From a virus, in IMG/VR virus record IMGVR_UViG_3300033153_002797, positions 1-43,984 of that record: 43,984 nt of DNA. One strand, given 5' to 3'. The notes under the pieces were generated by a model. The model searched no databases. It was given only the letters and a program-made list of their open reading frames with translations, and was not told the origin of the DNA. Shown here piece after piece: positions 1,337 through 43,984 of the stretch. How positions within the stretch are numbered: position 1 is the first letter of the stretch; every line of letters begins with the position of its first letter. The position numbers and the translations under genes were made by a program.

Positions 1337-2257
1337 ATGGCTGATGTCGTCTTTCAGTATTACACCAGCTCCGGCACAACCAAGGAGGACATCCTCGATC
1401 TGGTGACGAACATCTCACCCGAGGATAGCCCCTTCCTTTCGATGTGCCAGACTGCTCCCGACGCAACCAGTCGGGTTCACCAATTCGCCACCGACACTCT
1501 TGGTGTGCGAACTTCAGCGGCGGCGATTGAAGGTTTCACGTTCTCCGGCACTACCCTCGTAGGTCGTGTTCGGCTGACGAACTACACCGAAATCCGCCAC
1601 CGTAACGTCTCCGTGTCCGACTCGGCTCGTGCGATGGACAACATCGGGACTACCGATGAGTACGCGTACCAGTCGATGAAGGCCACGAAGCAGTTGGCGA
1701 TTCACTTCGAGAACGCCCTCTGGACTACCGCCACCGGAGCCGTGGGCAATGCCACGCTCGGCGCGACCATGAAGGCCATCCTCCCGTGGATCACCACCAA
1801 CAAGTCCACCTCTTCCGCGACTCGCACTCTGACCACGGTCCTGATGAACACGATTCTTCAGGCAGCGTGGGAGCAGGGCGGATCCCCGGACTACATTTTC
1901 TGTGGCCCGGCGAGGAAGATCGGACTGAGCGCCATCATCTCCACGGCCTACGGTGAGCGCCAAGTGCCCGCCACTGGTGGTGGGGCAGGCGGCATCGGTG
2001 GGACCATCGCCCAGTACGTCGATGTCTACATGAACGACTTTGGGCACCAGCAGGTGATTCTCTCGCGTGACATCGCGGTTGACACCTACGCGGCTATCGA
2101 CATGAGTCGGTGGGCTATTTCCTGGCTCTCCGGACGCCGACCGATGATTAAGCCTGTCGGACGGCGGGGTGACAAGACCGAATGCTACATCGTCGGTGAG
2201 TCTACCCTCGAAGGCCGGGCGGAGAACGCATCCGCCAAGCTCGAAGAGATTGCCTAG
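1337..2257 (+). CDS. Major capsid protein, DUF5309 / SU10 type
   Basis: 306 residues. The N-terminus carries the signature of the DUF5309 (SU10-like) capsid family: a helix followed by an Ile-Ser-Pro-Glu-Asp-Ser-Pro-Phe motif (about residues 26-33), then the strand with Asp-Thr-Leu (about 52-54). A later segment near residues 85-115 has the family's Arg-Asn-Val-Ser-Val-Ser-Asp pattern. It forms the HK97-fold icosahedral shell. A Gly-rich loop (Ala-Thr-Gly-Gly-Gly-Ala-Gly-Gly) lies near residue 215. It follows the scaffold by 32 nt, and a strong hairpin follows it, as is usual for a highly expressed capsid gene. No maturation protease is seen next to it. Confidence 0.92.
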   Translation: MADVVFQYYTSSGTTKEDILDLVTNISPEDSPFLSMCQTAPDATSRVHQFATDTLGVRTSAAAIEGFTFSGTTLVGRVRLTNYTEIRHRNVSVSDSARAMDNIGTTDEYAYQSMKATKQLAIHFENALWTTATGAVGNATLGATMKAILPWITTNKSTSSATRTLTTVLMNTILQAAWEQGGSPDYIFCGPARKIGLSAIISTAYGERQVPATGGGAGGIGGTIAQYVDVYMNDFGHQQVILSRDIAVDTYAAIDMSRWAISWLSGRRPMIKPVGRRGDKTECYIVGESTLEGRAENASAKLEEIA

Positions 2258-2674: not shown

Positions 2675-3195
2675 CCAGAATCGTCAACATCTCAGACCCG
2701 TTCGATCTCGAATTCCCGCTCCTTGAGCGATGGCCGTTCGAGGACAACTCAATCATCTCCGTCTCCGTTGAAGCTCGGGTGATGGTGGTGATGCCGCACG
2801 CCAACGTGCTCAATGGTGAGGCGGATCCGCTTACCCATGTAGTCACCGAGGCCAACCGCGTTCTTCAGGAGGGCGGCACTCTCGAACTCAAGGCCCCCTA
2901 TCACCTTCACAACTCCGGACTCGGACACCCGATGCAGCAGCGCATCTACAACCAAGCGTGCTTCTACGCCTATGGATGCCCGGAGAACGCCGAACACCCG
3001 ATCAGCAAGCAACTGGATACCGGAGGGGTGGAACTCGGAGTCAAGGAGCAGCCTATCGACCCCAACGATCACCCGTGGAACTGGTGGCATGGCGTTGAGT
3101 TCGGGGTGAAGATGCGCGTCATCTCTCTCCAGCATGACGAACACTACTGGATCGTCTTCTACCAGAAGTTCCGTCAGGACGAGATCCATGGATGA
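2671..3195 (+). CDS. Methyltransferase-like protein lacking the SAM-binding motif I
   Basis: 174 residues from the ATG that overlaps the upstream stop; a longer frame from 2584 exists but lies inside the previous gene. Residues 14-75 match the C-terminal half of class I (type 11) methyltransferases: Trp-Pro-Phe-Glu-Asp-Asn-Ser, then a Glu-Ala-Asn-Arg-Val-Leu-Gln-Glu-Gly-Gly helix and strand leading to Ala-Pro-Tyr. The upstream Gly-rich SAM loop is absent, so the protein may be inactive, or bind a partner or ligand instead. Short methyltransferase-like proteins of this kind are found in phages near glycosyltransferases. The role here is unknown; modification of virion sugars is a guess. Confidence 0.7.
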   Translation: MTRIVNISDPFDLEFPLLERWPFEDNSIISVSVEARVMVVMPHANVLNGEADPLTHVVTEANRVLQEGGTLELKAPYHLHNSGLGHPMQQRIYNQACFYAYGCPENAEHPISKQLDTGGVELGVKEQPIDPNDHPWNWWHGVEFGVKMRVISLQHDEHYWIVFYQKFRQDEIHG

Positions 3196-4423
3196 TTTCC
3201 TGATCGTCGGCAAGTCTTCTCTCGACGGAGCCCACGAATGGCTGCGCTGTAAGCAGTGCATGAAGGTCATGGGTGACGCTGGATACCGAACCGTGTTCAT
3301 GCCTGCTGGCGGCGATCCCGAAGAGTCTGAGCATTGGCTCAACCGTGCAGATATGTTCGTGTCAGGTCAGGGAGTCGGGGTAGGCGCGATGCCGCACTAC
3401 TTCCTGTGGCGCGAGGAGCTTTACCGCGAAACCGGGAAGTACGTCCCGATTGTCTGGGATGTGGACGACAACCCGGATTTCATCTCCCCCTGGAATTCGG
3501 CGTATGAGAATTTCGGGCTGGAGGAAGTGACCATCGTTAATCCGGATACCAAGGTCGAGCGGTTGCTGTGGGAGAACGGTAAGGGTGGCTTTGATCTCGT
3601 CCGTAACCGCCTGAGTGTCAAGTCCTACAAGTTTCTGCTTCGGCATGTGGATGCCCTGATCGTCACTCAGCCGTACCTCGCGGACCAACTCAGGAAGTAC
3701 AACCCGAACATCGAGATCATCCCGAACGACGTGGACTTCAAGAACCACTACCGCATCCGGAACACGCCGCAACGAGACGGCAAGGTTCGCATCCTGTACA
3801 TGGGTGGGAGTTCGCACTTCCTCGACTGGAAATTCATCGCTCCGACCCTGAAGTCCATCACGCAGCAGTACCCGCATGTACGGGTATGTTGCTTCGGAGA
3901 CATTCGACGGTGGGCCATCGCGGATCTGGGTGAGGAGTTCGTGGAGGACATGCAGTGGCAGGGCGATTACAAGTCCTTCTGCCTGAAGATGGGGACGATG
4001 GGGATTGACTTCGCCATTGCCCCGCTCGCCATGGAAGACCCGTTCGAAGCGGAGTTCAACCGCTGTAAGTCCTGCCTGAAGTGGGTGGATTACGGGGCGG
4101 TAGGAATTCCGTGTATCGCTCAGAACGACATCCCGTACTCGCCGGAGATCACCTTTGGCGATGACATTCCCGATCTGCTCTGGGATGGGGTTTTGGCCTC
4201 GACGCCGGAAGAGTGGTTCCTGGCGCTGTCTACGATGATCGAAAACCCGCAGATGCGGGAAGTGATTGGCGGCAACGCCTACCAGACGGTGTTCAAGAAG
4301 TGGAACTCTGGAACCAAGGCAGACGAGTACCACGCTGTCTTTGAGCGCATTCTCGGATACTCGGAGTGGAAGGGTGAGGTTGACCTTTCCGATGTCAGAG
4401 CGGGTGTGACAGTCGAAGCCTAG
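3188..4423 (+). CDS. GT-B fold glycosyltransferase
   Basis: 411 residues, starting 8 nt inside the previous gene; a longer frame from 3134 overlaps that gene more. The N-terminal half has a Val-Trp-Asp-Val-Asp-Asp-Asn segment (about residues 90-96). The linker Asp-Ala-Leu-Ile-Val-Thr (about 155) leads to the C-terminal Rossmann part (Ile-Leu-Tyr-Met-Gly-Gly, about 200). The donor-sugar site is the Glu-Phe-Asn-Arg-Cys-Lys-Ser-Cys-Leu-Lys helix followed by Tyr-Gly-Ala-Val-Gly-Ile-Pro (about 289-309), typical of GT4/GT1-like enzymes. It transfers a sugar from a nucleotide donor; the acceptor cannot be read from sequence. Its place between capsid and adaptor suggests it decorates a virion protein, or a host structure during assembly. 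It is less likely to act on DNA, since no hypermodified-base genes are seen. Confidence 0.85.
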   Translation: MDDFLIVGKSSLDGAHEWLRCKQCMKVMGDAGYRTVFMPAGGDPEESEHWLNRADMFVSGQGVGVGAMPHYFLWREELYRETGKYVPIVWDVDDNPDFISPWNSAYENFGLEEVTIVNPDTKVERLLWENGKGGFDLVRNRLSVKSYKFLLRHVDALIVTQPYLADQLRKYNPNIEIIPNDVDFKNHYRIRNTPQRDGKVRILYMGGSSHFLDWKFIAPTLKSITQQYPHVRVCCFGDIRRWAIADLGEEFVEDMQWQGDYKSFCLKMGTMGIDFAIAPLAMEDPFEAEFNRCKSCLKWVDYGAVGIPCIAQNDIPYSPEITFGDDIPDLLWDGVLASTPEEWFLALSTMIENPQMREVIGGNAYQTVFKKWNSGTKADEYHAVFERILGYSEWKGEVDLSDVRAGVTVEA

Positions 4424-4448: not shown

Positions 4449-5336
4449 TTGTTCACTCGTCGCGCCCGGCTAGCGGAGCGGATTGGCATCTCTCGCTCTC
4501 AGACCATCCCTGCTGACCTTCAGACGCAACTCAACGGCTACGTCGAGGATGCCATCCGCCGCATCTCACGGCACCACGAATGGGGCTGGATGCGCGGCTA
4601 CGACCGCATCGAACTCGAAGCCAAGGTTGATGTGGGCACGGTGGCGGTATCGGCAGGGGGCACCGCAGTCACCGGAACCGGGACGGCCTTCCCTACCGTT
4701 TGGGCCAACGAAGACTACGGCGAGATGCGGATTGGGCGGGAAGTCTACCGGGTCGCATCCATCACTGATGGCACCAATCTTGTCCTCACGGATTCCGCTT
4801 TGGTGGAAGCTACCGCCGCGAGCTTCCAACTCTACAAGAACCGCTACGTCCTATCGAACGTCTACGCCTTGGAAACCATCGTCTCCACGGTGGGGGCGCA
4901 GGATGCGGTAGAGGCGGTGAGCAACGAGCACGTTCAGGGGATGAAGTCTCAGTTCCTCTCCTTCGGGCGTCCTCGCTTCTGGTCGAATCCGGAGTATGTC
5001 GGCGGCTTGCCGGTGATCGAAGTCTACCCGGTGCCCAACTACAACGAGATTCTTCACGTTCGGGGGCTGAAGCTGCCCACCATTCCCTCTGCTGACGGCG
5101 ACACCGACGACATTCCGGAACAGTGGAGTCAGGTGGTGGACGAGTGGGCCAAGGTTGAGATGTACGAGGCCATGGAGGATCAGCGGTACTCAACGGCACT
5201 GAGGATGGCTGAGAAGTCTCTGGCGAGGATGATACAGGAGTCGGACGCCAACCGAGACGGGGCGAGGTTTGAGCTTGACCCCCGTTTCTACCGCAACCCG
5301 CGTAGACATCAAGGCTACGGAGGGGTGGTGAACTGA
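4449..5336 (+). CDS. Head-tail adaptor (SU10 adaptor-like)
   Basis: About 295 residues. The N-terminal part has the helix Leu-Asn-Gly-Tyr-Val-Glu-Asp-Ala-Ile-Arg-Arg-Ile, then a His-Glu-Trp-Gly-Trp segment (about 40-50) typical of podovirus adaptors that dock under the portal. A small beta-rich insertion (about 62-115) and a C-terminal helical part follow. The start is uncertain. TTG at 4449 has GGAG at 4440-4443, but a stronger site AGGAGG (4422-4427) lies 6 nt before an in-frame ATC at 4434. That ATC would add five residues (Ala-Gly-Asp-Thr-Leu after the initiator). No in-frame ATG or GTG is available upstream. Confidence 0.82.
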   Translation: MFTRRARLAERIGISRSQTIPADLQTQLNGYVEDAIRRISRHHEWGWMRGYDRIELEAKVDVGTVAVSAGGTAVTGTGTAFPTVWANEDYGEMRIGREVYRVASITDGTNLVLTDSALVEATAASFQLYKNRYVLSNVYALETIVSTVGAQDAVEAVSNEHVQGMKSQFLSFGRPRFWSNPEYVGGLPVIEVYPVPNYNEILHVRGLKLPTIPSADGDTDDIPEQWSQVVDEWAKVEMYEAMEDQRYSTALRMAEKSLARMIQESDANRDGARFELDPRFYRNPRRHQGYGGVVN

Positions 5337-11373: not shown

Positions 11374-11446
11374 GATGTGGAAACAACGGAGATCAGTGTC
11401 GTTCATCAAGTATCCCGGCTATCCGGGGTCTGGAAAGGGAATCGCC

Positions 11447-13300
11447 ATGGCGAATAGCCTGAAATGGCCTGTAATTCAAGGCAACCAACCGGCGTTCCCC
11501 GGACGGCAAGTGACGATCCCCGCGTCCATCGCTTCCGGTGCGTCTCGCGCTCTCTTGGATCTCCGCGCCTTCTCTGCCGCCAAGAAGTCCGGACTCGACG
11601 TGTTCGGGCGGTACTCCATCGCTCAAATGCTCGACATGCTGTTCTTCGCCAACGGTAAGGACGCGGTGCAAATCTTCGATCCTGCCAATCAGACGGTGAA
11701 GAACCTTGGACTCGCCGCTCCTGCTGCTGCTCCGACGACTGCCGATCAGGGCACGGGGACGTTCGCCGGAACCTACACCTACGTCGTGCGGTGGATGAGA
11801 CTCGCTACGGGTGAGTTCTCTGCTCCTTCGGACATCGACACCATAACCGCTGACGGAAGTTCTGAGTTCGTTCGGGTGACATGGACGGACCCGAGTATCG
11901 ACGGTGCTGACAGGGCTCAGGTGTTCCGCTCCAAGACGGGGCTGATTGGGCCTCTGTACCTGATTGCCACGGTGGACATCACCACGGAACTCTTTGACGA
12001 TGACACCGCAGATAACGACATCGACATCACGCTCATTCTACCGGCTCGTCCCGCTCCGGGCGGTTCGTCTTCGGTGCCCGTCTTCGACTTCATCGAGAGC
12101 TACAACGGGCGGCTGTGGGGAGTCAAGGACGACGATCTCTACTGGAGCGAAGCGAACTTCCCGTGGATGATTCCGGCCACGAACTTTGTCAAGGTGCAGC
12201 CCAACGACAGGGACAAGGTGACGGCTATCCGGCAGTCTTCCGGTGCGCTCTACATCTTCAAGCGCCGTCACACCTACGTCGTGTCCAACATCGAACTAGA
12301 GGCGGGGATCGCAGGGCAGGGGCAGCTACTTCTGCCGACTATCACGATGGTGGACAACGCCACCGGAGCAGCTTCCGAAGACTCCATCGTGAGTGCCGAG
12401 AACCGCCTCTACTTCATGTCCGGTGAAGGGAAGCTCTACGAACTCACGGGAGGAGCAGCAACCGAGATCGGGCCGAAACTCGAAGGGACGCTCAAGACTC
12501 TCTTCACCAAGAGACTTGCGGACGTTTCAGCAGGGTACGACGAAGCCAACCGCAAGGTGTGGTTCACGATGACTCAGGACGAGGACGTTCACAACAACCT
12601 GGGTATCGTCTTGGATCTCGCGTCTCCCGGTTGGTATCTGGACACTCGCCACATGGAAACCATCGGGCAATTGCAGGACGCCGATGGACGTGAACGGATG
12701 GTGTTCGGTGATCTGCTCGGCAACGTCTACCAGATGGGCTACGGCTATTCCTTCGGGGCTCTCTCAGGGACGCTCTACGGCACCGTCACCAGCGCCACGC
12801 GCAATACGCTGAAACACACAGGGGCGGTGTTCGCCATCGACGTAGCGGGGCTTCCTGTGACTTTGGTGGATAGCGACAACTTCGTGGTGGAGCGGAACAC
12901 GATTGCTGCTCGGGACGGGGACGAGGATCTGACGATGCTCTACCCGTGGACCACGGTTCCTGACTCAAACTACACCTACCTGATTGGCTCCAATGCTCCG
13001 AGTTGGACCTACGGCTACACGGATCTTGGTTCGCCTTCGGTGTGGAAGCAGATCAAGACGATAGAGGTATCCTTCGATCCTTCGACGTGGAAGGGCGCGT
13101 TCTTCCTGAGTATTGACGAGGGAGCGGAGCGGTTTGCGGGGTATGTGGATTTCGCCAATACGCGGGGCAAGTACACGGTGCCAATCTTCCTTGGAGGGAA
13201 CGAGTTGAAGGTGAGGGTGGAGGCTTTGGACGGAGGCCAGCCGTTCGGCATCCACGCTCTTGAGTTCGCTATTCAGACTTCAGGGCCGAACCTTTTATGA
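11447..13300 (+). CDS. Tail nozzle protein (beta-propeller hub)
   Basis: 617 residues from ATG 11447, which has AAAGGGA 6 nt upstream; an in-frame ATG at 11375 has only a poor ribosome site and would add 24 residues. The order fits podovirus nozzles (P22 gp10 / T7 gp12 / SU10 type): N-terminal beta part; a fibronectin-III-like insert at about 100-190 (Tyr-Val-Val-Arg-Trp, then Ala-Pro-Ser and an Arg-Val-Thr-Trp strand); then propeller-like blades with Asn-Gly-Arg-Leu-Trp-Gly, Ala-Leu-Tyr-Ile-Phe-Lys, Asn-Arg-Leu-Tyr-Phe-Met and Lys-Val-Trp-Phe-Thr-Met strands (about 200-430). The C-terminal 180 residues are beta-rich. It extends the adaptor ring to form the tube through which DNA leaves. Confidence 0.82.
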   Translation: MANSLKWPVIQGNQPAFPGRQVTIPASIASGASRALLDLRAFSAAKKSGLDVFGRYSIAQMLDMLFFANGKDAVQIFDPANQTVKNLGLAAPAAAPTTADQGTGTFAGTYTYVVRWMRLATGEFSAPSDIDTITADGSSEFVRVTWTDPSIDGADRAQVFRSKTGLIGPLYLIATVDITTELFDDDTADNDIDITLILPARPAPGGSSSVPVFDFIESYNGRLWGVKDDDLYWSEANFPWMIPATNFVKVQPNDRDKVTAIRQSSGALYIFKRRHTYVVSNIELEAGIAGQGQLLLPTITMVDNATGAASEDSIVSAENRLYFMSGEGKLYELTGGAATEIGPKLEGTLKTLFTKRLADVSAGYDEANRKVWFTMTQDEDVHNNLGIVLDLASPGWYLDTRHMETIGQLQDADGRERMVFGDLLGNVYQMGYGYSFGALSGTLYGTVTSATRNTLKHTGAVFAIDVAGLPVTLVDSDNFVVERNTIAARDGDEDLTMLYPWTTVPDSNYTYLIGSNAPSWTYGYTDLGSPSVWKQIKTIEVSFDPSTWKGAFFLSIDEGAERFAGYVDFANTRGKYTVPIFLGGNELKVRVEALDGGQPFGIHALEFAIQTSGPNLL

Positions 13301-13722: not shown

Positions 13723-14793
13723 ATGGCTTGGAGCATCGGCAGATGGCATCAGCACGAAAAGGGCCGGGTAGACAGGGCGATCAAGAAAGGCCCTGCCGCC
13801 ATCCAGACGTTGATCGACGACTACGAAGCGCGGTATGAGAACAACGTCGGTGCGGGGGAATCCGATTGGGGAACGCTCCACGGGAACATGCTGTGGAATC
13901 TCTACAAGGCTGGAGGCCAAGGTCCGGGCGAGCCCTACGAGGGGCGGAACGACTACATCAAGAACGTCGTTGGGAGGGGTGGCGATCCGCTCGGTTACGG
14001 TGAGTGGAAGCCGGGACAGAAGGATGTCTACTTCGATGAGGAAACCGGCGAGTCGTCAGCAGAACCACCGGAAGGGTACGAAGGACCGGACCTGACGGAG
14101 CGGAAGCAGGATTGGCGGGAGATGAGTGCGCCTCCCAACTGGCTGAAATCCATGGCCTCCAAGGACGGCGGTGAGCTTCAGCTTCAGTTCATGGCGATGG
14201 AAAACGCCATGGCGGGGCGGGCGGCAGCCGTCGATCAACTCACGGGTTTCGATGAGGAGATGCAGGAGCAGATCGGACAGCCGGTAATCTCTCCCGAAGA
14301 CGAGCAAGAGATGCTTGCCATGTCTTCCGGCACGATTGCTCAGGGGTACGAGAACCAACGTCTCGGGGCTACTCACGCCATGGGAATGCGGGGCATCGAT
14401 CCCCGATCAGGCGTTAATCAGGAGTTGATGGCTTCGATGCGTTTCGGCGCTTTGGCTGAACAGGCGCAGACGGACATCGGAACACGGCTTCAGAACAAGC
14501 AAATCAACCGCGGTGCCTTGGAACGAGCGATTGGGCTCAGGACAGGTATTCAGGGTGGGATTGCAGACTTGATGGCGGGACAGCCGTTGGCTGCAACGTC
14601 CATGGCTGCGGCTTCATCCTCGATGGTTCACTCCGCGAATATGGCTGACTTGGCCTACGACATGGGCAAGCCGAAGGGCGTTCTCGGCTCCATGCAGGCG
14701 GGCGCTGTTCAGGGTTCTCAGGCAGCCGGTGGCGGAATCATGGGTATCGCTGGCGGCGCTATCAACGCTCCCATTAGCATGATTAATCGGTAA
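13723..14793 (+). CDS. Internal virion / DNA ejection protein A
   Basis: 356 residues. An N-terminal helical part is followed by an acidic Pro/Tyr-rich region (85-130). A long helical part (145-290) is rich in Met, Ala and Gln and includes a Met-Gly-Met-Arg-Gly-Ile-Asp-Pro-Arg-Ser-Gly turn. The C-terminus is a Gly/Ala hydrophobic tail (Gly-Gly-Gly-Ile-Met-Gly-Ile-Ala-Gly-Gly). This organisation, and the position after the nozzle, match the first of three podovirus ejection proteins (P22 gp7, T7 gp14 roles), which leave the head and form a channel across the host envelope. The Gly-rich tail could insert in a membrane. Sequence similarity to named families is weak. Confidence 0.72.
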   Translation: MAWSIGRWHQHEKGRVDRAIKKGPAAIQTLIDDYEARYENNVGAGESDWGTLHGNMLWNLYKAGGQGPGEPYEGRNDYIKNVVGRGGDPLGYGEWKPGQKDVYFDEETGESSAEPPEGYEGPDLTERKQDWREMSAPPNWLKSMASKDGGELQLQFMAMENAMAGRAAAVDQLTGFDEEMQEQIGQPVISPEDEQEMLAMSSGTIAQGYENQRLGATHAMGMRGIDPRSGVNQELMASMRFGALAEQAQTDIGTRLQNKQINRGALERAIGLRTGIQGGIADLMAGQPLAATSMAAASSSMVHSANMADLAYDMGKPKGVLGSMQAGAVQGSQAAGGGIMGIAGGAINAPISMINR

Positions 14794-14804: not shown

Positions 14805-16370
14805 ATGGTGATCTGGGGCGGAATGGCTGCTGGCGCTCTCAGCGGAGGGGGCGGCGGAATAGGCGACATGATCGGCGGGATCATCGGTGGCGGTGGGGGT
14901 GGAGCCCAAGCAACGGAACCAACCGCTCTCGCCCCGAGGCAAACTCCGCACTTCGGGACGATGATGCTCCAGGCATTTCTCGGTGGCGTTCCGGGCGTTG
15001 GTGGCAAGCGGAATACGCTCGCCGCAGGCAGTCTGGACATGCAACTCCAGTCGGGCATGATCACCGAAGGCGAATACTACAAGCTCAAATCGCTCGGGCA
15101 CGAAGCGAAGTACAAGAACGAGCTGTGGACGAAGAACGCCGCCTACGAGGATTGGCTTAAGGGGACGGATGTTGGTGGTGGAGTTAGAGCGCGTCCGGTT
15201 GGACTGGGACCGTCACCGTTGAACGACGCTGAGAAGACGTATCTCAAGATCCCGACCTCGTGGCAAGTAAACGCTTCGAAGCAGATCGCCGCAATCATGG
15301 ATCCCAAGAGCGGGCTGTCTGAGCCGGAGCAGATCCAAGCTCTCCATGACTCCGACGATCTGACGAGACAGTGGGCGGGCTTGCGCGTCTACTCCATGGA
15401 GGAGCGCAGGCAGCAGGAGGTGGGAAATCTCCGATGGGGGTGGGCGGAAGGAACCCTCAATCCGAAGCAGGAGGAGATGTATAAGAAGCTCACTGCCAAG
15501 CCGTTGACCGCTCACGATCAGATGACGAAGGATGAAGTTGATACTTGGTCGCACTGGAACGTGAACTGGCTCAAGTATCTCGACACCAACAACGTCATCG
15601 AGTCGGACCTGACGAAAGAGGAACTGAAGCACCATCGCCTCAAGGCGTTCGGCGGTGACTACGGCGCGGCGGTGATGTTCGACCACTACAACGGGAAGTA
15701 CGGAGAGAAATTCACAGCTCGCAGCACAGAGAAGAAGCGAGACCAGTTTCAACTCGCCGTACTCCGGTTCCTGCCACAGATTGACGAGCACCCGACGCTC
15801 TCGCCGGAGCAGAAGATCACGCTCAAGCAGAAGATCGGCAGAGCCAGGAGCTATCCCGCGCTCAAGAACATCACGGGACCGAACGGCGAGCCCCTTGGCG
15901 ACATCGCTTACGACGGCGTGAAGGTGGTAGAGAACGAGATATTCCTTGCCAATGCGGAGATGGCAGACGAGAAACTCCGACTCGACAGAGGGACCGCAAG
16001 GCTGAGGTACGACGACGCGAGGCAGGATTGGCTCGCCCGTGTAAGCCCCGAGGAGCAGCGCAAGATTGATTTGGACATCAAGGTTGCCGAGGAGCAGCGC
16101 GAGATCCAAGCCAGAAAGGATGTCGCCACATTCCTAGCGGATCTCAAGGCGCAGTATGCAGGTGGAGAACTCGCCGGGATCACCCCGGCAACCGGATCGA
16201 CTATTGTCAATAAGATCTCAGAGTTGCTCATAGCTGACTCCAGAGCCAAGGATGACGGAGCACCAGCCGTCATCACTGATCCTGAAGACGTGGAGATGAT
16301 GTACGACATACTGATGAAGGTGTTCAGTGACTATCAGGAGAAGATGAATGCCGCCGAAAACAAAGAGTAA
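14805..16370 (+). CDS. Internal virion / DNA ejection protein B
   Basis: 521 residues, strong ribosome site AAAGGAG. The first 35 residues are a Gly-rich hydrophobic segment (repeated Gly-Gly-Gly with Ile, Met, Ala), the mirror image of the Gly-rich tail of the gene before it. The rest is charged and helical, with many Lys/Glu and Trp, suiting an extended internal core protein. Position and composition fit the middle ejection protein of podoviruses. The last 23 nt overlap the start of the next gene in another frame. No lytic transglycosylase motif was seen. Confidence 0.72.
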   Translation: MVIWGGMAAGALSGGGGGIGDMIGGIIGGGGGGAQATEPTALAPRQTPHFGTMMLQAFLGGVPGVGGKRNTLAAGSLDMQLQSGMITEGEYYKLKSLGHEAKYKNELWTKNAAYEDWLKGTDVGGGVRARPVGLGPSPLNDAEKTYLKIPTSWQVNASKQIAAIMDPKSGLSEPEQIQALHDSDDLTRQWAGLRVYSMEERRQQEVGNLRWGWAEGTLNPKQEEMYKKLTAKPLTAHDQMTKDEVDTWSHWNVNWLKYLDTNNVIESDLTKEELKHHRLKAFGGDYGAAVMFDHYNGKYGEKFTARSTEKKRDQFQLAVLRFLPQIDEHPTLSPEQKITLKQKIGRARSYPALKNITGPNGEPLGDIAYDGVKVVENEIFLANAEMADEKLRLDRGTARLRYDDARQDWLARVSPEEQRKIDLDIKVAEEQREIQARKDVATFLADLKAQYAGGELAGITPATGSTIVNKISELLIADSRAKDDGAPAVITDPEDVEMMYDILMKVFSDYQEKMNAAENKE

Positions 16371-19300
16371 GCCGCCGAAGGAACCCACCGATCAAGAAGC
16401 GATCAACGCCTACCTCGCCGTAGAGGTTTTAAACTTGGTGGCGACGGGTGGTGATAAGGAGCCTTCTTCAGCGCCGATGGACATGCCCGACATCCTGTGG
16501 GATGAACACAAAGAGGACGTTGCTCGCACCAAGAGTGGTGGCTACCCGAAGACAGCGGAAACCACAGGCACGCTCCTCGATCCGCTGACGGAATGGTTCA
16601 CGACCCCGTGGAAGACGGCGCTGTTTGGTGGAGATGCAGGCGTGTTCGGTGGGGAGTCTAAGCGAGGAACACATGTGCCTGGACTGCTCACGTTCCCGCA
16701 AGAGACGGGAGAGGCCATCCCCGCCCCTTCGTTTGGAAAGACAGTGGAAGGCGACAACCTGTACGACTGGCTCAGTCGTCAAGGATTTCCACTACTGAGC
16801 AGAGATGAGCCGTCTCGGAAGATCGTCACCGACCCGATCATTGCCGGTTCCGTAGCAAAGGGAATGGCCGGTGCCTTGTTCAGAGAGACATCCGAAGCCG
16901 CTCTCGGCCAGTACGCTCGCAACGCCCTGCGGTGGGCAGCCAAGGAAGCCCTTCCGGCAGGGAAGACGGTTAACCCCGCAACGAAGCTGTTTGGACAGTG
17001 GAAGAAGGCACGCGAGGCATCCAAGGTTACGAAGTGGACGAAGTATTACGACAAGTTCGAGGACGCCATGTGGAAGGGGTCCGACAAGGCGTTTGGCCCT
17101 GAAGTTCAAGACTTTCTGAAGCACAACTTCCAGACGACTAGGGTGAAGTTCGGTTCGGGTCTTGCGGACGCCATGCTGGACATCAGATCGGTGCAGGCGC
17201 TAGCCAAGGTCAAGATGATGCCGGTGATCAAGCGAGTCCAAGCCATCACCTCTGACGCGGATCAACTCGCTCTCTCTCGGTATCTGCGACCTCGGGTGGT
17301 TGGCGGTGAGAAGGTTTGGCCGACGCACTTGTCGAAGAAGTTCACCGATGATGTCTACAAGGGCGGATACGAGGTTTTTGATCCCGACTTGAAGAAGTAT
17401 TTCGACCGACACGTAGCCACCGTCGAGCGGAAGTCTGCTCAAGCCGTTGAACTCAACACGATGTCCAAGAACGTCCTCGAAGAGTACGGCGGTGACTGGT
17501 ATCCGAGACGCTTCCAAAGCAAAGATTTCATCAACGAAGGCCACACGGTTTCGAAGAAGGCCATAGGGCCAGCCAAGGAACTGCACTTCGCCCGTGACGG
17601 TTACGGTGTGCGGGTGAAGATGTCCAAGGAGGAAGCGGACACGCTGCTGAAGGGGGTTGGAGAGAGCGAAGTGCAAGGTGAATTGTTGTTTCATGGTTCC
17701 CCAAGCGGGAAGCTCACTTCATTCGAACCAACACACCATACGCAAGTATGGGGACAAGGGATCGGCACATACGTCACTTCCTCAGAGGATGTGGCAAGGC
17801 TATATGCAAAGGGGCGCACAGCGCAGGGAGCGAGACTAGCAAGTGCGGCAGAAAAAGGAGACGTAACCGCATTTAGGGTAAAGGGTGGAGTCAAGCCAAA
17901 GATATTTGATCTTGAGGCCCCGGCAGACGTTGAGTTTTGGAAGAAGGCTTCCGAGACTGGCGGTGTTCCCTTTGATGATGTTATTTCCGCAACGAACAAG
18001 GAGACGAGAAAGAAGTTCATCCAGGCACACAGGAAGGCTCATGGGTTTGAGGATCCTGACGAGGCTAAATATGCCTTTGAAAGCATCCTCGATGATGCCG
18101 GAATTGACGCTACAAGACACGTCGAGTTGGAGAGCGCGACGGGCAAGTCGCATGAAGTGCTAATCATCAAGAATAAGCGTGCCTATGAGATTGTGGGCGA
18201 CAAGGACATTCCATCCACCGGCTCCGCTGTCTCCAAGACGGATCTTGTGAAGGGACGCGCCGAACTGGACCCGATCTACTCAGGCGAGAAGTCCAACGTC
18301 TCGTTCGTGAAGTTCTCTCCTAAGCAGTACGGTGGCTCTGAAGAGGCGGCAGCCGCAGCAAGAGACGAGTTCACCAAGCGTGCAGTAAACGCCGGATACA
18401 AGCCCATTAAGAGCGGGGAAAGCATTTTCGTGAACCCGTTCACCGAGGCTGAACTTGCCGAGATGGGCGAGCTTACACAAGCGGCTCCAAATATGTTTGC
18501 GGCGATGGAATCGTTGGACATGCGGATCGCACAAGGGCGAGTATTCAGGGAGGTTGCGAAAGACTCGGAGTACGCCTTGGCCGTCGCAGAAGCCCAAGCC
18601 CAAGGCAAGGTGGCGGGTGGCGTTGCGGGGAAGGCAAACCTCGGATGGCGTCACATTCCAGACTCAACCAAGTGGGGCGATCTTGCCGGGATGTATGTTC
18701 GTCCTGACATCTACCGGGAACTGGTAACGATAGACCAGACGTTGCTCGGTCCAGGTAAGCGGATTTACCAGGATGTCGTTCGGAACGTGAAGTCCAGCTA
18801 CACCATCTGGTCCTACCCGACCTTGGTTCGGAACTGGTTCTCCAACGCGATGACGGTAGCCACGGGCGGAAACACACCGCCTTGGATCGGTGGGCTCCAC
18901 AACACGCCGCATTATTGGGAGGCTCTTTGGACCAAGAAGGGCAGCCCGATGCACCTAGAGTTCATCAAAAAAGGGGTGGATCGCGCTGGATTTGTCGAGA
19001 CTGAACTCGACATGTTCAAGGCCGTGGTGAAATCAAAAGTCCCCATGTCTGAGAAGACAATCGCAGGGGACGTGAAGAACTTCCTCTCGCACCTTCCCTT
19101 CATGAAGAAGTCCGTTCTCACCAAGAGCAATCTAGCCAAGGCTCAGGGCAGGGTCTACGGTGCCGCCGACGTTTGGCACCGCAGGGCGATGTATCTCAAG
19201 GCCAGAAAGGTTTGGAAGTTCACCCCCGAAGAAACTATCGCCCATGTGAACAAGTACACCCAGAACTACCCCGAGATCGGGAACATCCCGAAGATGACTC

Positions 19301-20298
19301 GGGATATGCCGATGGGTGCGATGTTGGTTTCGTACCCGGTAGAGTCAATTCGGATGCTCAGAAACGGGATACGCGAGCATCCGCTCAGGACTGCCTTGGT
19401 GATGGGCGCACCGTTCCTTTGGAACCAAGGCCACAAGTACGCATCCGGCATGAGCGACGAGGAGTACGCAGGGCTCAAGAACGACAGCCCACTATCGGTC
19501 ACCTACCCATTCCGAAACGAGAGGGGCAATTGGGAGCACATCGGTACAGAATACTGGCATCCTTACGGGTGGATGATGCCACCGTTTACCGGCGACAAGT
19601 ACACCCGGCAGGAGGAGATGGAGTCTGGTTCGACTGGATGGGCTGGGAAAGTCTTCCGTGCTGCGAAGGTGATTAGGTCATTCGCATTCAATGAGCCTGT
19701 CTTCAACATCGCTGGCGGGGCCATTTCCGGGCACGATCTCTTCACGGGCCGTCCAATCCAACAGGAAGGGGAGAAGATCCTCCCGGCCTATACCGAGTGG
19801 TTTATGCAGGCCATGTTGCCATCTCAATTCCCCCCGTACGGTCGCAACTACCAAAGGCAGACCGACTACACAAAGGGGCTGAAGAGGTACGGTGGCAAGG
19901 AAATCACGCTAGGCGATACGGCCATGAAGACGGTGCTTGGGGTGGGGTTTGACGAGTACGATCCTGATCTTGAGCGCGAGCGGTGGAGATCGCAGGAGAA
20001 TTGGGCAAAGAGGGAGATGGAGAAGCAGATCAATCGCATGCGCAAGCTATATGACGACGAGCGCATCCTGGAAGGCGAGTACAAAGAACGAGCATCCACT
20101 ATCGCGGAGAAGTACGCCGTCTTCATCCGCGAGGGCAAGGAGCGAAAGCTGTTGTCTATGATCGTTCTTACCCAGCGCGACATGGAGGCTGGTAAGAAGG
20201 CACGCTACGACATCGGTGAGTTGAAGTTACTACTTGAAGAAGTCAGGGCAGGTAAGAACGCCCCTAGTGTCCAGCGCAAGATCGACGCTGGAAAGTAG
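16348..20298 (+). CDS. Giant internal virion protein with ADP-ribosyltransferase-like module
   Basis: 1316 residues; start ATG at 16348 with AGGAG 7 nt upstream, inside the end of the previous gene. The long charged helical body is typical of the largest ejection protein of podoviruses and of polyvalent phage proteins. Residues about 705-830 carry a conserved-looking block (Gly-Trp-Arg-His-Ile-Pro-Asp, then Leu-Ala-Gly-Met-Tyr-Val). Residues about 975-1050 contain a Pro/Gly-rich aromatic segment with a hydrophobic stretch. Inserted at about 445-620 is a module like the ART-PolyVal ADP-ribosyltransferases (see separate entry). The protein should be packed in the head and delivered with DNA, so any enzymatic module would act in the host at once. 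Assignment as ejection protein is by size and position. Confidence 0.8.
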   Translation: MPPKTKSKPPKEPTDQEAINAYLAVEVLNLVATGGDKEPSSAPMDMPDILWDEHKEDVARTKSGGYPKTAETTGTLLDPLTEWFTTPWKTALFGGDAGVFGGESKRGTHVPGLLTFPQETGEAIPAPSFGKTVEGDNLYDWLSRQGFPLLSRDEPSRKIVTDPIIAGSVAKGMAGALFRETSEAALGQYARNALRWAAKEALPAGKTVNPATKLFGQWKKAREASKVTKWTKYYDKFEDAMWKGSDKAFGPEVQDFLKHNFQTTRVKFGSGLADAMLDIRSVQALAKVKMMPVIKRVQAITSDADQLALSRYLRPRVVGGEKVWPTHLSKKFTDDVYKGGYEVFDPDLKKYFDRHVATVERKSAQAVELNTMSKNVLEEYGGDWYPRRFQSKDFINEGHTVSKKAIGPAKELHFARDGYGVRVKMSKEEADTLLKGVGESEVQGELLFHGSPSGKLTSFEPTHHTQVWGQGIGTYVTSSEDVARLYAKGRTAQGARLASAAEKGDVTAFRVKGGVKPKIFDLEAPADVEFWKKASETGGVPFDDVISATNKETRKKFIQAHRKAHGFEDPDEAKYAFESILDDAGIDATRHVELESATGKSHEVLIIKNKRAYEIVGDKDIPSTGSAVSKTDLVKGRAELDPIYSGEKSNVSFVKFSPKQYGGSEEAAAAARDEFTKRAVNAGYKPIKSGESIFVNPFTEAELAEMGELTQAAPNMFAAMESLDMRIAQGRVFREVAKDSEYALAVAEAQAQGKVAGGVAGKANLGWRHIPDSTKWGDLAGMYVRPDIYRELVTIDQTLLGPGKRIYQDVVRNVKSSYTIWSYPTLVRNWFSNAMTVATGGNTPPWIGGLHNTPHYWEALWTKKGSPMHLEFIKKGVDRAGFVETELDMFKAVVKSKVPMSEKTIAGDVKNFLSHLPFMKKSVLTKSNLAKAQGRVYGAADVWHRRAMYLKARKVWKFTPEETIAHVNKYTQNYPEIGNIPKMTRDMPMGAMLVSYPVESIRMLRNGIREHPLRTALVMGAPFLWNQGHKYASGMSDEEYAGLKNDSPLSVTYPFRNERGNWEHIGTEYWHPYGWMMPPFTGDKYTRQEEMESGSTGWAGKVFRAAKVIRSFAFNEPVFNIAGGAISGHDLFTGRPIQQEGEKILPAYTEWFMQAMLPSQFPPYGRNYQRQTDYTKGLKRYGGKEITLGDTAMKTVLGVGFDEYDPDLERERWRSQENWAKREMEKQINRMRKLYDDERILEGEYKERASTIAEKYAVFIREGKERKLLSMIVLTQRDMEAGKKARYDIGELKLLLEEVRAGKNAPSVQRKIDAGK
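17680..18213 (+). other. ADP-ribosyltransferase-like domain inside the giant virion protein
   Basis: Residues about 445-622 of the 1316-residue protein. It opens with Leu-Phe-His-Gly-Ser-Pro-Ser-Gly (His449), then 26 residues on Gly-Ile-Gly-Thr-Tyr-Val-Thr-Ser-Ser (Tyr475) followed by Asp-Val-Ala-Arg-Leu-Tyr-Ala. This is the His...Tyr core of the H-Y-[EQ] ADP-ribosyltransferases, in the arrangement of the ART-PolyVal family. A candidate third catalytic residue is Glu603 in Ser-His-Glu-Val-Leu-Ile-Ile-Lys. These enzymes move ADP-ribose from NAD+ to a target. By hand count GC is about 51% over four lines of this module (17761-17820 and 17881-18060) against 58-65% in nearby parts of the gene, consistent with later acquisition. 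Confidence 0.7.
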
Positions 20299-37741: not shown

Positions 37742-37926
37742 TGTTGGCTCAACCCCTGAAGCTCGAAACTCCGCGCTCGGTAGAGGTCGTGCAAGTGGTG
37801 AGGGTCGTCGCCGCTCGTGGACACGGAAACGCGAACGATCCGATCCGCGAGGTGACGCAATACTGGTCGCCCGATGGCAAGCTCCTTGCTGAGTATGACT
37901 CGGAAGTCGTGCGGTACGAGGCGTGA
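37741..37926 (+). CDS. 61-residue protein of unknown function
   Basis: Beta-rich: Val-Glu-Val-Val-Gln-Val-Val-Arg-Val-Val (14-23), then Gln-Tyr-Trp-Ser-Pro-Asp-Gly-Lys-Leu-Leu-Ala-Glu-Tyr. The latter is a common strand-turn-strand of small phage proteins. Its stop overlaps the GTG of the phosphodiesterase-like gene. Confidence 0.62.
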   Translation: MLAQPLKLETPRSVEVVQVVRVVAARGHGNANDPIREVTQYWSPDGKLLAEYDSEVVRYEA

Positions 37927-38666: not shown

Positions 38667-38803
38667 CAGTCACCAAGACACAGCGGTTCGGGATGGCATA
38701 TTTCGGGCGTCCGTGGGTGGTGGTGGTCCGCACCGGCAACAACAAGGCTACTCACCGCTTCAAGACGGAGCCCGAAGCAGACACCTTCATCGCTGAACTC
38801 TGA
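38663..38803 (+). CDS. 46-residue protein before large terminase
   Basis: GTG start in the previous stop. A small beta protein (Trp-Val-Val-Val-Val-Arg) ending with Asp-Thr-Phe-Ile-Ala-Glu-Leu. Its stop overlaps the terminase ATG (TGATG), and terminase has no ribosome site of its own, so it probably couples terminase translation. Confidence 0.6.
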   Translation: MTVTKTQRFGMAYFGRPWVVVVRTGNNKATHRFKTEPEADTFIAEL

Positions 38804-40344
38804 TGGTGAAAAAGTACGACAAGAGAATCACGGATACCATCAAATTGTGCAGACAAGCCCCTTGGCTTGTTTTCATCCCCAAGTACCGAGGCAACGTTGC
38901 CGTCCTCGACATTGCGGGAGTTTCTGAGAAGCGCAAGACGGGTGTCCCCCGATACCTCACCGCGCCTCAGCAAGAGTTCATGTCGTCTCAGGCTGACGAG
39001 CGGTGGTTTGTGGGCTCCAACCGCTCTGGAAAAACGTTTGGTGGTGCGTTGGAGACGGCCTTTTGGGCGAACGGCATCCACCCTTTCAGGCAAGTCCCTG
39101 AACCACCAAACCTCATCTGGGCTGGCTTCCCCGACTTCAAGAACCACGGACGCCCCATTACCGTTCCACTGCTCAAGTGGGCTTTGGGCAAGCTCGACGT
39201 GGAATACCAGAGAGCAGCAGACAAATTCATCGTCACAGCCGCTAATGGTGCAGAGTCCATCATCTACCTGAAGTCCTACGACTCCGGTGCGGACAAGTGG
39301 CAAGGTGACGCCCCCGATCTGATCTGGTTTGACGAAGTTCCCCAGGATCAGGGCATTTACGACGAAGCCTGTATGCGGATTGGGGAAGAAGAAGCCCTGA
39401 ACATCATCGGCACCATGACGCCGCTGAACCAATGCGCCTGGCTCTACTCCGACGTGTACGAGCCTTGGGTGGACGCCAACAAGCCCAAGGACATGATCTT
39501 CATCAACGCGGACATCTACTCAAACCCCCACCTCTCGAAGGCTGCGGTAAAGAAGGCCGAGACAAAATACGCAAATGATCCTGATCAGGCAAAAGTCAGG
39601 CTCAAAGGAGAGTGGGCACACATCGCCGGGCGGATCTACCCGATGCTCTCCGCACTGGTCCACATCATTCCCGACTTCGAGATCCCTGGCGTACATCGGG
39701 CCGTGAAAGATGGGGAGGAACCGTGGACTCTCTACCGCGCTATCGACGTTGGCATCCGCAACAATTCCGTCGTGCTGTGGATAGCCGTTTCCCCCGATGG
39801 ATTGTGCTACATTTATCGAGAGCTTTGCAAGTCCGACACCAGCATACCCACCATGTGTACCATCGCGCTCGCCATGGAAACCGCCCACGAGAAGGCCACC
39901 GGATTTGTCTACAGCGTTATCGACCCCTCCTCAACCCAACGCGATCCGGCGACTGGCTTCGCTAGGGTTGACACCTACGCCACCAACGGAATCACCTGTA
40001 TCACCGGCAACAACAAGTTCGTGCACGGAACAGGCAGGATGAAGGATGCTTTCGCCTTCAAGCGGGAAGAGAGCACCGGGATTTTGGTATCGCCCCCGAA
40101 GTATCGCTTCTTCAAGACGTGTCCGATAACGTGGAAAGAGCATCGACGGTACGCTTATGCGGCGGCGGCAGGATCGTCCGTGGTGGATCCCAGAGAAAGT
40201 GCGCTGAAAAAGGACGATCATTGCTGCGACGCGATTCGTTATTTGGAGGCCACCAACCAAGGCCCCTTGTTCCGCACTCAGGAACCGGACGAATACGAAT
40301 TCGCGGATGCTCAGTATACGGAAGACGAGACAACGGGCTACTGA
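38803..40344 (+). CDS. terL: Terminase large subunit
   Basis: 513 residues. The ATPase part has Walker A Gly-Ser-Asn-Arg-Ser-Gly-Lys-Thr (71-78), Walker B Leu-Ile-Trp-Phe-Asp177-Glu178 and coupling motif Gly-Thr-Met-Thr-Pro (203-207). The RNase H-like nuclease part has Asp315 in Ala-Ile-Asp-Val-Gly, Asp374 in Val-Ile-Asp-Pro-Ser, and Asp476 in His-Cys-Cys-Asp-Ala-Ile-Arg-Tyr. It pumps DNA into the procapsid through the portal and cuts it. Length is normal. It is separated from the portal by two ParB-associated genes, rather than adjacent as is common. Confidence 0.95.
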   Translation: MVKKYDKRITDTIKLCRQAPWLVFIPKYRGNVAVLDIAGVSEKRKTGVPRYLTAPQQEFMSSQADERWFVGSNRSGKTFGGALETAFWANGIHPFRQVPEPPNLIWAGFPDFKNHGRPITVPLLKWALGKLDVEYQRAADKFIVTAANGAESIIYLKSYDSGADKWQGDAPDLIWFDEVPQDQGIYDEACMRIGEEEALNIIGTMTPLNQCAWLYSDVYEPWVDANKPKDMIFINADIYSNPHLSKAAVKKAETKYANDPDQAKVRLKGEWAHIAGRIYPMLSALVHIIPDFEIPGVHRAVKDGEEPWTLYRAIDVGIRNNSVVLWIAVSPDGLCYIYRELCKSDTSIPTMCTIALAMETAHEKATGFVYSVIDPSSTQRDPATGFARVDTYATNGITCITGNNKFVHGTGRMKDAFAFKREESTGILVSPPKYRFFKTCPITWKEHRRYAYAAAAGSSVVDPRESALKKDDHCCDAIRYLEATNQGPLFRTQEPDEYEFADAQYTEDETTGY

Positions 40345-41947: not shown

Positions 41948-43984
41948 ATGGCTGCGCAAGAGAACCCTCCGTCTGAGCGATTCACGCCTCCCGACAAAAA
42001 GAACTACGCCGGAGTCGAAGAAGTCGCGGTGCGTGCCAAGAAAACGGTCATGCACGGGCTCAAACTCGCCAAAGAACAGCGTCAGAACGCTGAATGGCGA
42101 TGGGCGCGGATGTATTCCGCCTTCAGAGCCAAACGCAAGCGCAAGAACTACATGGGACGGGCCAATATCGTTGACCCGGAACCATCCAAAGCCATCGAAA
42201 CCCTCGCTGCTCGCATCGAAGACTCCATTCTGGGCCAACGCCCTCTCGCTAGAGGGATGCCCCGAGAGAAAGCCGATCAGCAACAGGTAGAACTCAACGA
42301 GCAGTTGATTCAGTACCAGATGGACAGGGACGAATTCGAGCGCAAGTTCGGCTCATTCACCAAAAACCTGTGTATCTACGGGACAGCGATGATGCGCGTC
42401 TCCTGGCAGGAAGTCACCCGCCAGCACGCCAAGAGAGTCAAGAACAAGGAAGACAACGGTTGGGATCTCTTCGCTGGCGAGTCTCCGGTTTACGCCGGCC
42501 CCACCGCCAGAGAGGTCCAGATCGGTGATTTCTACGTCGGGAACGTCCGCAAGGAGACGGTGGAGGAGCAGGATTTCGTCATCGAGCGCATGGTGGTGGA
42601 CCGCTCCTACCTGATGAGCCTCCAGAAGCAGGGACTTCTCAAGAACGTGGAGAAGATCAAGCGGGACTCTCAGCCCGAGATCAAGTTCGACGACTACCTG
42701 AAGAACTCCAAAGCCCAAGACTCGGAGCAGGGTGTCACTCAGAGAGAGGAAGCCCTCTGGTCTCCGGTCCAGAAGGTGTCCATCTCCATGTACGAGGGCA
42801 AATTCGCTCTCAACTCGGACAACGAGGACATCACCAAGTTCAAGGCTGAAGTGGAGTGCTGGATTTGGGTTACGGATTGCGGCCAAGTGCTGATGTGCCA
42901 GGAGAATCCTTACTGGCACGGGCTCAAGAGCTACGTTTCCTGCCACTACATCAAGGTTCCGGGCGAGTTCTACGGGATTGGCGTCATCGACTGGATTGAG
43001 GATCTGTGGACGGAACTCTGCGACTCTCACAACCAAGCCCTTGACTCCAAGAACCTGTCCATGAACTCCATGATTCTCGCGGGCGCGGGCGCGGGACTGA
43101 CGACTTCCAAGCTCACCGCGTCTCCGGGCCGAGTCATCCGCATGAACGGGGACGTGAACCAGATCAAGCCCATGATCATCCCCGACACTTCGGGCACTTC
43201 CTATCAGGCCATCGGCGTTCTCAGGAACATGATGCGCGAGACTACCGGAGCCACGGACTTGATGCAGGGGCAGTCTGCGGGAGGGATTGACAAGGCCACC
43301 ATCTTCGCAGGATTGCTCTCCGAGTCGAACATGCGGCTGAAGACGGTGATTCGCAACTGCTATTTGATGCTCATTGAGCCGTTGATGGTTCGTTGGTACG
43401 GGCTCAATCAGCAGTACATCGACACCGAAACAGTGGTGCGAGTGGTGGGTTCCAAGGGTTTCGACTGGATACCCATGACGCCGGAATCCCTGAACACGCC
43501 CATGGACTTCAAGGGCACCGGCACCGGGATGCTCGGAACAACGCTGGCCCGGAACGCCGGGCTGCAATCACTCCTTCAGATGATGGTTCCGCTGATGCAA
43601 GCGGGGTTGCAGGTTGATTTGCCCGCGATGATGAAGCGGATCTGGCATGACGTGTTCGGCTACGACGACGCCGACACCATCTTTGGCGGCAAGGACGCCT
43701 TCCGTGCCCACGATCCGCGAGAAGAGAACATGATCCTCTCTCAGCGTCAGGCGGTGGACTTGCACCCGTCCGACGACGACATCGGGCACATGCAGCTTCA
43801 CATCCAACTCGGAGCCACCACCGAAGATCCGATTGTGGCTCGTCTCACCATGGAGCATGTCGAGCAGCACCAAGAGGCGGCTCGGGAGAAGGCGGCACAA
43901 CAGCAGATGCAAGCTGCCGCCCAGGAAGCTCAGATGCTCGGGCAGATGAGAGATGCCGTAGAACCCCGAGGCGCAGGTGGAGGC
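41948..43984 (+). CDS. Portal protein (N-terminal 679 codons; continues at base 1)
   Basis: The frame is open from ATG 41948 to the end of the window and continues in phase at base 1, ending at 249; 723 residues after removing the 114-base overlap. The N-terminus is a charged helix; residues about 70-110 hold the conserved Ala-Asn-Ile-Val-Asp-Pro-Glu-Pro and Ala-Arg-Ile-Glu-Asp-Ser. A Tyr-Gly-Thr-Ala-Met-Met-Arg-Val-Ser-Trp motif follows at about 143-152. The stem region has Asp-Leu-Met-Gln-Gly-Gln-Ser-Ala-Gly-Gly (about 437-446), typical of P22/SU10-like portals that form the dodecameric DNA gate. Preceded by a leaderless promoter. Confidence 0.92.
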   Translation, partial: MAAQENPPSERFTPPDKKNYAGVEEVAVRAKKTVMHGLKLAKEQRQNAEWRWARMYSAFRAKRKRKNYMGRANIVDPEPSKAIETLAARIEDSILGQRPLARGMPREKADQQQVELNEQLIQYQMDRDEFERKFGSFTKNLCIYGTAMMRVSWQEVTRQHAKRVKNKEDNGWDLFAGESPVYAGPTAREVQIGDFYVGNVRKETVEEQDFVIERMVVDRSYLMSLQKQGLLKNVEKIKRDSQPEIKFDDYLKNSKAQDSEQGVTQREEALWSPVQKVSISMYEGKFALNSDNEDITKFKAEVECWIWVTDCGQVLMCQENPYWHGLKSYVSCHYIKVPGEFYGIGVIDWIEDLWTELCDSHNQALDSKNLSMNSMILAGAGAGLTTSKLTASPGRVIRMNGDVNQIKPMIIPDTSGTSYQAIGVLRNMMRETTGATDLMQGQSAGGIDKATIFAGLLSESNMRLKTVIRNCYLMLIEPLMVRWYGLNQQYIDTETVVRVVGSKGFDWIPMTPESLNTPMDFKGTGTGMLGTTLARNAGLQSLLQMMVPLMQAGLQVDLPAMMKRIWHDVFGYDDADTIFGGKDAFRAHDPREENMILSQRQAVDLHPSDDDIGHMQLHIQLGATTEDPIVARLTMEHVEQHQEAAREKAAQQQMQAAAQEAQMLGQMRDAVEPRGAGGG
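43871..43984. repeat. Terminal direct repeat (copy of 1-114)
   Basis: Identical to positions 1-114 and in the same portal reading frame. It shows that the contig closes on itself; remove one copy to obtain the 43,870-bp genome. Confidence 0.95.

Follow-up and report, generated by a model that had tools for sequence, protein, structure and literature searches.

A giant late protein of 1316 amino acids (16348..20298, + strand) carries an apparently intact ADP-ribosyltransferase (ART) domain of the polyvalent type, whose base composition is unlike that of the remaining gene; this much was shown by sequence comparison. The gene lies in the window, by which we mean the whole stretch of DNA that was analysed (43,984 nucleotides, IMG/VR virus record IMGVR_UViG_3300033153_002797). 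We think it probable that the protein is the largest member of an ejection set of the SU10/LUZ24 type and that its ART would act on the host after ejection.

An ADP-ribosyltransferase-like domain within a giant late protein

The ATG of the giant gene has AGGAG directly upstream, and the start of the reading frame overlaps the end of the upstream gene. A preliminary description of this DNA had placed an ART module at 17680-18213, which corresponds to residues 445-622 of the protein, in frame and without an internal stop. The motifs and residues that it named are exact: LFHGSP runs from residue 447, GIGTYVT from 471, and DVARLYA from 481. The ART is the only recognisable domain in the 1316 amino acids. 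No sequence relative was detected for residues 1-440 and 625-1316, and queries with the whole protein, the ART segment, and the C-terminal part found no close relative in viral contigs, phages, plasmids, or genomes. Weak tblastn matches (E of 1 or worse) were put down to chance, and weak matches to Eisosome1, BamB, and others were set aside for the same reason. The sequence YPTLVRNWFSN (about residues 820-831) presumably resembles a motif of polyvalent proteins; we found one similar sequence (in locus L027) and no Pfam match, and we make no claim for it.

The best Pfam match of the segment is ART-PolyVal (PF18760), with E values of 0.0015-0.003 and scores of 18.7-19.7 bits. This match spans just the first third of the Pfam model and lies below the gathering cut-off of 31.2 bits, which is a threshold for annotation and not a biological trait. 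Because 19.7 bits falls short of 31.2, we file the domain as a divergent relative of ART-PolyVal and not as an automatic PF18760 annotation.

Since the Pfam match alone was suggestive, we built a profile from phage ART domains. Phage loci were gathered with a DNA pattern ([F/Y]HG[S/T] and then GxGxxY-like codons), and 58 non-redundant domains went into the profile. (The pattern matches in L009, L014, L017, L020, L022, L025, L030, and L032 proved to be one repeated 23-amino-acid frame and not ARTs.) In alignment A2, all 27 of the 27 members match PF18760. The profile matches residues 445-612 (17680..18183, + strand) with 44.6 bits for the segment and 39.7 bits for the whole protein (38-44 bits overall). 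As the loci had been picked by their motifs, we used a control in which both motifs were kept in place: across 1000 such shuffles, the mean score was 9.7 and the maximum was 24.3, versus the 44.6 bits observed. The region past the second motif, scored by itself, reached 14.5, and the shuffles reached at most 8.0. Because this tail beats all 1000 shuffles, the homology spans the whole domain, as far as the GxD motif and the final HEVLII strand. The profile matches of the segment are to PARP-like mono-ARTs (PARP12, E = 4.8e-5). At the level of sequence, then, homology of residues ~445-612 to Pfam ART-PolyVal was confirmed; the proposed module is upheld by both the Pfam match and the 58-domain profile, and the homology to ART families that the preliminary description had proposed to look for was found.

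The same description had proposed a structure prediction, and the outcome agrees with an ART at limited confidence. A first model, made from 10 sequences, had a pLDDT of 45 and was useless. The AlphaFold2 model of the segment from 27 sequences (pLDDT 68.6, pTM 0.63) resembles ART folds, with His449 in strand 445-451 (strand 1) and Tyr475 in strand 474-477 (strand 2). A Foldseek search of viral models returned 28 matches at E <= 1e-3, several of them annotated as ART-PolyVal. Against the PDB, it returned RES toxins (the best matches), tankyrases, and diphtheria toxin, all weakly (E of 0.03 or worse). With VIA-align, the best match was 9k3a_B residues 1418-1600, from the cyanophage A4 pre-ejectosome (Z of 8.0 over 143 residues, where values of 6-8 are in the range that the tool calls common), and the toxins MbcT and ParT also ranked high. 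A split beta-sheet NAD-binding fold may be present: the matches are ARTs, but at Z of 6-8 and from a model of moderate confidence. Such Z values are weak by themselves; what carries weight is that fold, sequence profile, and biological setting agree.

In the predicted active site, His449 (17692..17694, + strand) is the strand 1 histidine, which is H in 58 of 58 domains, and Tyr475 (17770..17772, + strand) is the strand 2 tyrosine of the GxGxY motif, which is Y in 54 of 58. The preliminary description had named Glu603 (18154..18156, + strand; within SHEVLII) as the third residue. In the alignment to PARP12, Glu603 falls in the classical PARP position, which we take to be that of the catalytic glutamate, and this position is E in 28 of the 58 domains. 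Asp587 (18106..18108, + strand), in the GxD motif, is the sole invariant aspartate (58/58); it stands at the start of model strand 588-596, and Glu603 is in the next strand. Iyer and colleagues described the active site of ART-PolyVal as H-Y-D (PMC5512222), and we infer that Asp587 is their strand-5 D. Because Asp587 is invariant and the family is described as H-Y-D, Asp587 is the best candidate for the third active-site residue, and Glu603, which is present and in the place expected from PARPs, becomes the second candidate.

Might the fold be catalytically dead, or given over to a structural or binding role in the ejectosome? Several features would fit: the domain is just 12-27% identical to the family domains and below the Pfam cut-off; in its last strand, Ile607 replaces the usual phenylalanine; and the conserved IKS tail is absent. 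Also, the ART-like domain of cyanophage A4, which is part of an ordered pre-ejectosome, scores still lower. Yet the domain keeps His449, Tyr475, the two GxGxY glycines, Asp587, and Glu603, and decay should have lost some of them. We consider a dead or repurposed domain unlikely.

Another alternative is an active ART whose substrate is nucleic acid or NAD+ itself, as for DarT-, RES-, or NADase-like enzymes; such an activity might blunt an NAD-based defence or mark DNA. The RES-domain toxins at the top of the Foldseek matches from the PDB and the high VIA ranks of MbcT and ParT point this way. Against this, the sequence profile matches PARP-like mono-ARTs, and the ART-PolyVal family is grouped with protein-modifying ARTs (PMC5512222). 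We regard a substrate of this kind as somewhat less probable again than a dead fold.

Gene context and the predicted ejection set

The window has a direct terminal repeat of 114 bases (1-114 and 43871-43984): its first 100 bases are repeated at 43871, and its last 100 bases are repeated at 15. Because of this repeat, we read the record as probably a complete genome of about 43.87 kb. The capsid, adaptor, portal, and terminase genes and the virion and late protein genes described here are on the + strand. The major capsid protein (1337..2257; PF17236, E = 2.8e-64), the adaptor protein (4449..5336; PF24175, E = 1.4e-8, which exceeds the cut-off), and the portal protein (41948..43984; PF23899, E = 5.1e-36) are all of the SU10 type, and the reading frame of the portal protein runs on from the right end through the terminal repeat to position 249. 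The terminase large subunit is at 38803..40344. The head, portal, and adaptor genes support the assignment of the source phage to SU10/LUZ24-type podoviruses, as judged by their sequences, and agree with the earlier label of podovirus-like. LUZ24-like phages, for example Pseudomonas phage TL, have capsids that resemble this one, as does Pelagibacter phage HTVC106P; among viral contigs, queries with the capsid and with the 641-amino-acid virion protein described below gave only two relatives, both of them distant and of the capsid. One phage with a related capsid, Thiohalocapsa phage LS06-2018-MD04, has a DarB-like antirestriction protein (L036 3010-5868) directly before its portal gene, which is probably another injected protein in the same phage group.

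Two other genes of the window are worth recording. A glycosyltransferase gene (3134-4423; PHROG 7162, E = 2.8e-29) lies within the structural block, between capsid and adaptor, and upstream of the terminase there is a gene for a sulfatase-family protein (37923-38666; PF00884, E = 1.3e-10), which phages of such size do not usually carry. Among the other genes of the window that were tested with Pfam, none had a domain that removes ADP-ribose (macro, NADAR, or glycohydrolase).

A 641-amino-acid virion protein without cysteine (11375..13300) matches PHROG 511, "internal virion protein" (E = 4.6e-14), and also head closure Hc3 (E = 9.5e-5). It is followed by a 356-amino-acid late protein (13723..14793) and a 521-amino-acid late protein (14805..16370), which from their position and lack of cysteine are probably the first and second ejection proteins. 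The giant gene is the final large gene of the late block; after it come small genes, which are followed by genes for recombination (ERF, RusA). In podoviruses of this kind, the internal virion genes are reported to come after the tail genes, on their right-hand side, and their divergence and mosaicism hinder placement in trees (PMC10386132). The absence of detectable homology outside the ART accords with the rapid divergence of such genes (PMC10386132).

The 356-, 521-, and 1316-amino-acid proteins contain no cysteine at all; given that the other late proteins have cysteine at a rate of 1.4%, the chance of this is about 1e-14. The final three large late proteins are also free of cysteine in six of six relatives (TL, HTVC106P, EBPR podovirus 2, TPMD04, ppBeUSDA76-2, and ctXG6705), in a count that leaves aside a lysis-type gene of TPMD04 and a small terminal gene of TL. 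The same is true of T7 gp15 and gp16; P22 gp7, gp20, and gp16; N4 gp50, gp51, and gp52; and phiEco32 proteins 22-26. In the same phages, most of the remaining large virion proteins contain some cysteine. Proteins 22-26 of phiEco32 match gp20-24 of SU10 by position, and a proteomic comparison of virions and release intermediates detected SU10 gp20-24 in virions and no longer after release, and so showed them to be ejected (PMC9509320). The absence of cysteine from the N4 virion RNA polymerase has been attributed to its passage through the tail (PMC3915230). There are exceptions, as T7 gp14 has one cysteine and the cyanophage giant proteins have one or two, and the cysteine-free state is not exclusive to ejection proteins, as it also occurs in scaffolds and a few capsid proteins.

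Giant phage proteins with ART domains show a similar pattern. Among 79 such ORFs, 45 are without cysteine, and when they were clustered at 30% identity, the median number of cysteines was zero in 26 of 46 clusters. Overall, cysteine makes up 0.11% of the giant phage ART proteins, versus 0.82% of 140 neighbouring proteins.

By analogy with these systems, the late-gene position, the exclusion of cysteine, and the precedent of the cyanophage A4 pre-ejectosome support the view that the giant protein is an ejection protein. The preliminary description had the ART fused into a DNA ejection protein; the three lines of evidence favour that claim, and no homology of the remaining protein backs it. The term "ejection protein" rests on context because residues 1-440 and 625-1316 are without a detected relative. 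Could the giant protein instead belong to the virion, or to the late products generally, without being ejected, in which case the ART would act on the particle itself or at a late stage? Outside the ART, it does lack sequence homology to any proven ejection protein. Its location, as the right-hand member of a structural block of the SU10 type, and its lack of cysteine are as in proven ejection sets, and we judge this alternative improbable, more so than the two above. That the motifs arose by chance and there is no ART, for which one could cite the single-sequence Pfam E value of just 0.0015 and the missed cut-off, is scarcely credible, given that none of 1000 motif-preserving shuffles reaches the observed score, that the tail by itself beats them all, and that the fold searches give ART matches.

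If the giant protein is an ejection protein with an active ART, as we favour, then it would be packaged in the head and would exit via the portal, largely unfolded, before or with the DNA. It would help to build a channel across the envelope, and the ART would refold on the cytoplasmic side. The enzyme would then move ADP-ribose from host NAD+ onto at least one host macromolecule during the first few minutes of infection, ahead of any phage gene expression. The preliminary description named RNA polymerase, ribosomes, and defence proteins as possible targets; RNA polymerase is suggested solely by analogy with T4 Alt, an enzyme of a different ART clade.

Base composition of the ART segment

We computed codon third-position GC content (GC3) in 180-codon windows and corrected it for amino-acid content, with codon usage in the remaining late genes as the reference. 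The corrected GC3 of the giant gene has its minimum at residues 437-616 (17656..18195, + strand), with a z score of -5.9; the lowest value among 359 windows of other late genes was -2.7. Amino-acid content as the cause of the drop was tested by this correction and rejected. The low-GC3 window coincides with the ART as defined by homology (445-612), and its ends are the probable boundaries of a cassette. No match to the ART was found anywhere in the genomes of six comparison phages (TL, phiEco32, T7, N4, HTVC106P, and TPMD04). Because GC3 drops over the ART, the domain looks like a recently acquired cassette, and the simplest reading is that it was inserted recently into a pre-existing ejection protein.

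A broader idea would be that phage-ejected proteins are in general marked by exclusion of cysteine, and that effector domains (ARTs, for example) are cassettes, recently exchanged, that were inserted into ejection proteins under that constraint. We put this forward tentatively, as something that may well not hold, because of the cysteine-free sets of T7, P22, N4, and phiEco32, the clusters of giant ART proteins, and the ART cassette delimited by composition. The literature that we searched contained no general statement of cysteine exclusion in ejected proteins.

Relation to known systems

The closest known family is that of the ART-PolyVal domains of phage polyvalent proteins (PF18760; Tox-ART-HYD2 clade, PMC5512222), in which several distinct effector domains are found in one polypeptide (PMC5512222). 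The giant protein shares with them the strand 1 histidine, the GxGxY motif with the strand 2 tyrosine, the invariant GxD, and the setting of an ART inside a large late phage protein that is usually free of cysteine. It differs in that its ART is divergent and below the cut-off, is the sole recognisable domain, belongs to an SU10/LUZ24-type podovirus, and has a marked anomaly of composition. Two other large proteins are worth recording. A 1103-amino-acid protein that adjoins a portal-like gene (L007 3919-7230) has a Nudix box, a phosphatase-like YPSGHS...H motif, a second ART-like segment (YRG...SSW...GEFEF), and a C-terminal ART-PolyVal domain, and a repetitive 1272-amino-acid protein (L002 15918-19736) has a Hint/intein-like end (CFTGDTLVTTPEGYKAIKDIQVGDTV).

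The cyanophages provide podovirus giant proteins of the ejection apparatus that have ART-like domains, as we propose here. A4L_27 of Anabaena phage A-4L (A-4(L)) matches chain B of PDB 9k3a over its full length. The ART profile matches A4L_27 at residues 1422-1596 (L118 20116-25269) and PfWMP3_26 at residues 1197-1378 (L117 21214-25701). (Pfam misses the ART-like domains in these giant proteins of cyanophages A-4L and Pf-WMP3.) In both of these proteins the ART is near the C-terminus, whereas the ART of the window is mid-protein; no homology was detected elsewhere in the proteins, and the phage families are different.

In a comparison with the ejection proteins of SU10 and phiEco32, the type of head, portal, and adaptor, the position at the right end, the large last protein (1473 amino acids in phiEco32), and the lack of cysteine are all alike, but no ART was found in phiEco32 and no sequence similarity was detected.

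T4 Alt, which the preliminary description cited as a precedent, is a phage ART that is carried in the head and injected with the DNA, and it belongs to the R-S-E clade (PMC5512222). It stands as a functional analogue, alike in predicted delivery only, as it is from a separate ART clade (PMC5512222) and is not a podovirus ejection protein. In Roseovarius Plymouth podovirus 1, which we compared by description only, an ART is likewise in a giant injected podovirus protein (CBX87992; PMC5512222). There it is fused to an N4-type virion RNA polymerase, and no such polymerase is detectable in the giant protein of the window.

Papers from 2017 and 2022 (PMC5512222, PMC9503650) had already predicted injected phage ARTs, including fusions to a podovirus virion polymerase and a location close to head genes. 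Relative to those predictions, the giant protein is a divergent further case; the outline that composition gives the module, and the distribution of cysteine among giant phage ART proteins, are less familiar, and we put them forward as a generalisation that can be tested and not as a settled rule. Our analysis adds an SU10/LUZ24-type podovirus to the phages for which injection of an ADP-ribosyltransferase is predicted. A cassette whose boundaries are visible in an otherwise orphan, predicted ejection protein offers a clean comparison of that protein with and without the module. If the cysteine pattern is upheld in a larger survey, it would be a cheap test of the long-standing prediction that polyvalent phage proteins enter the host together with the DNA, and if the broader idea is true, then a phage's injected proteome could be listed from sequence alone.
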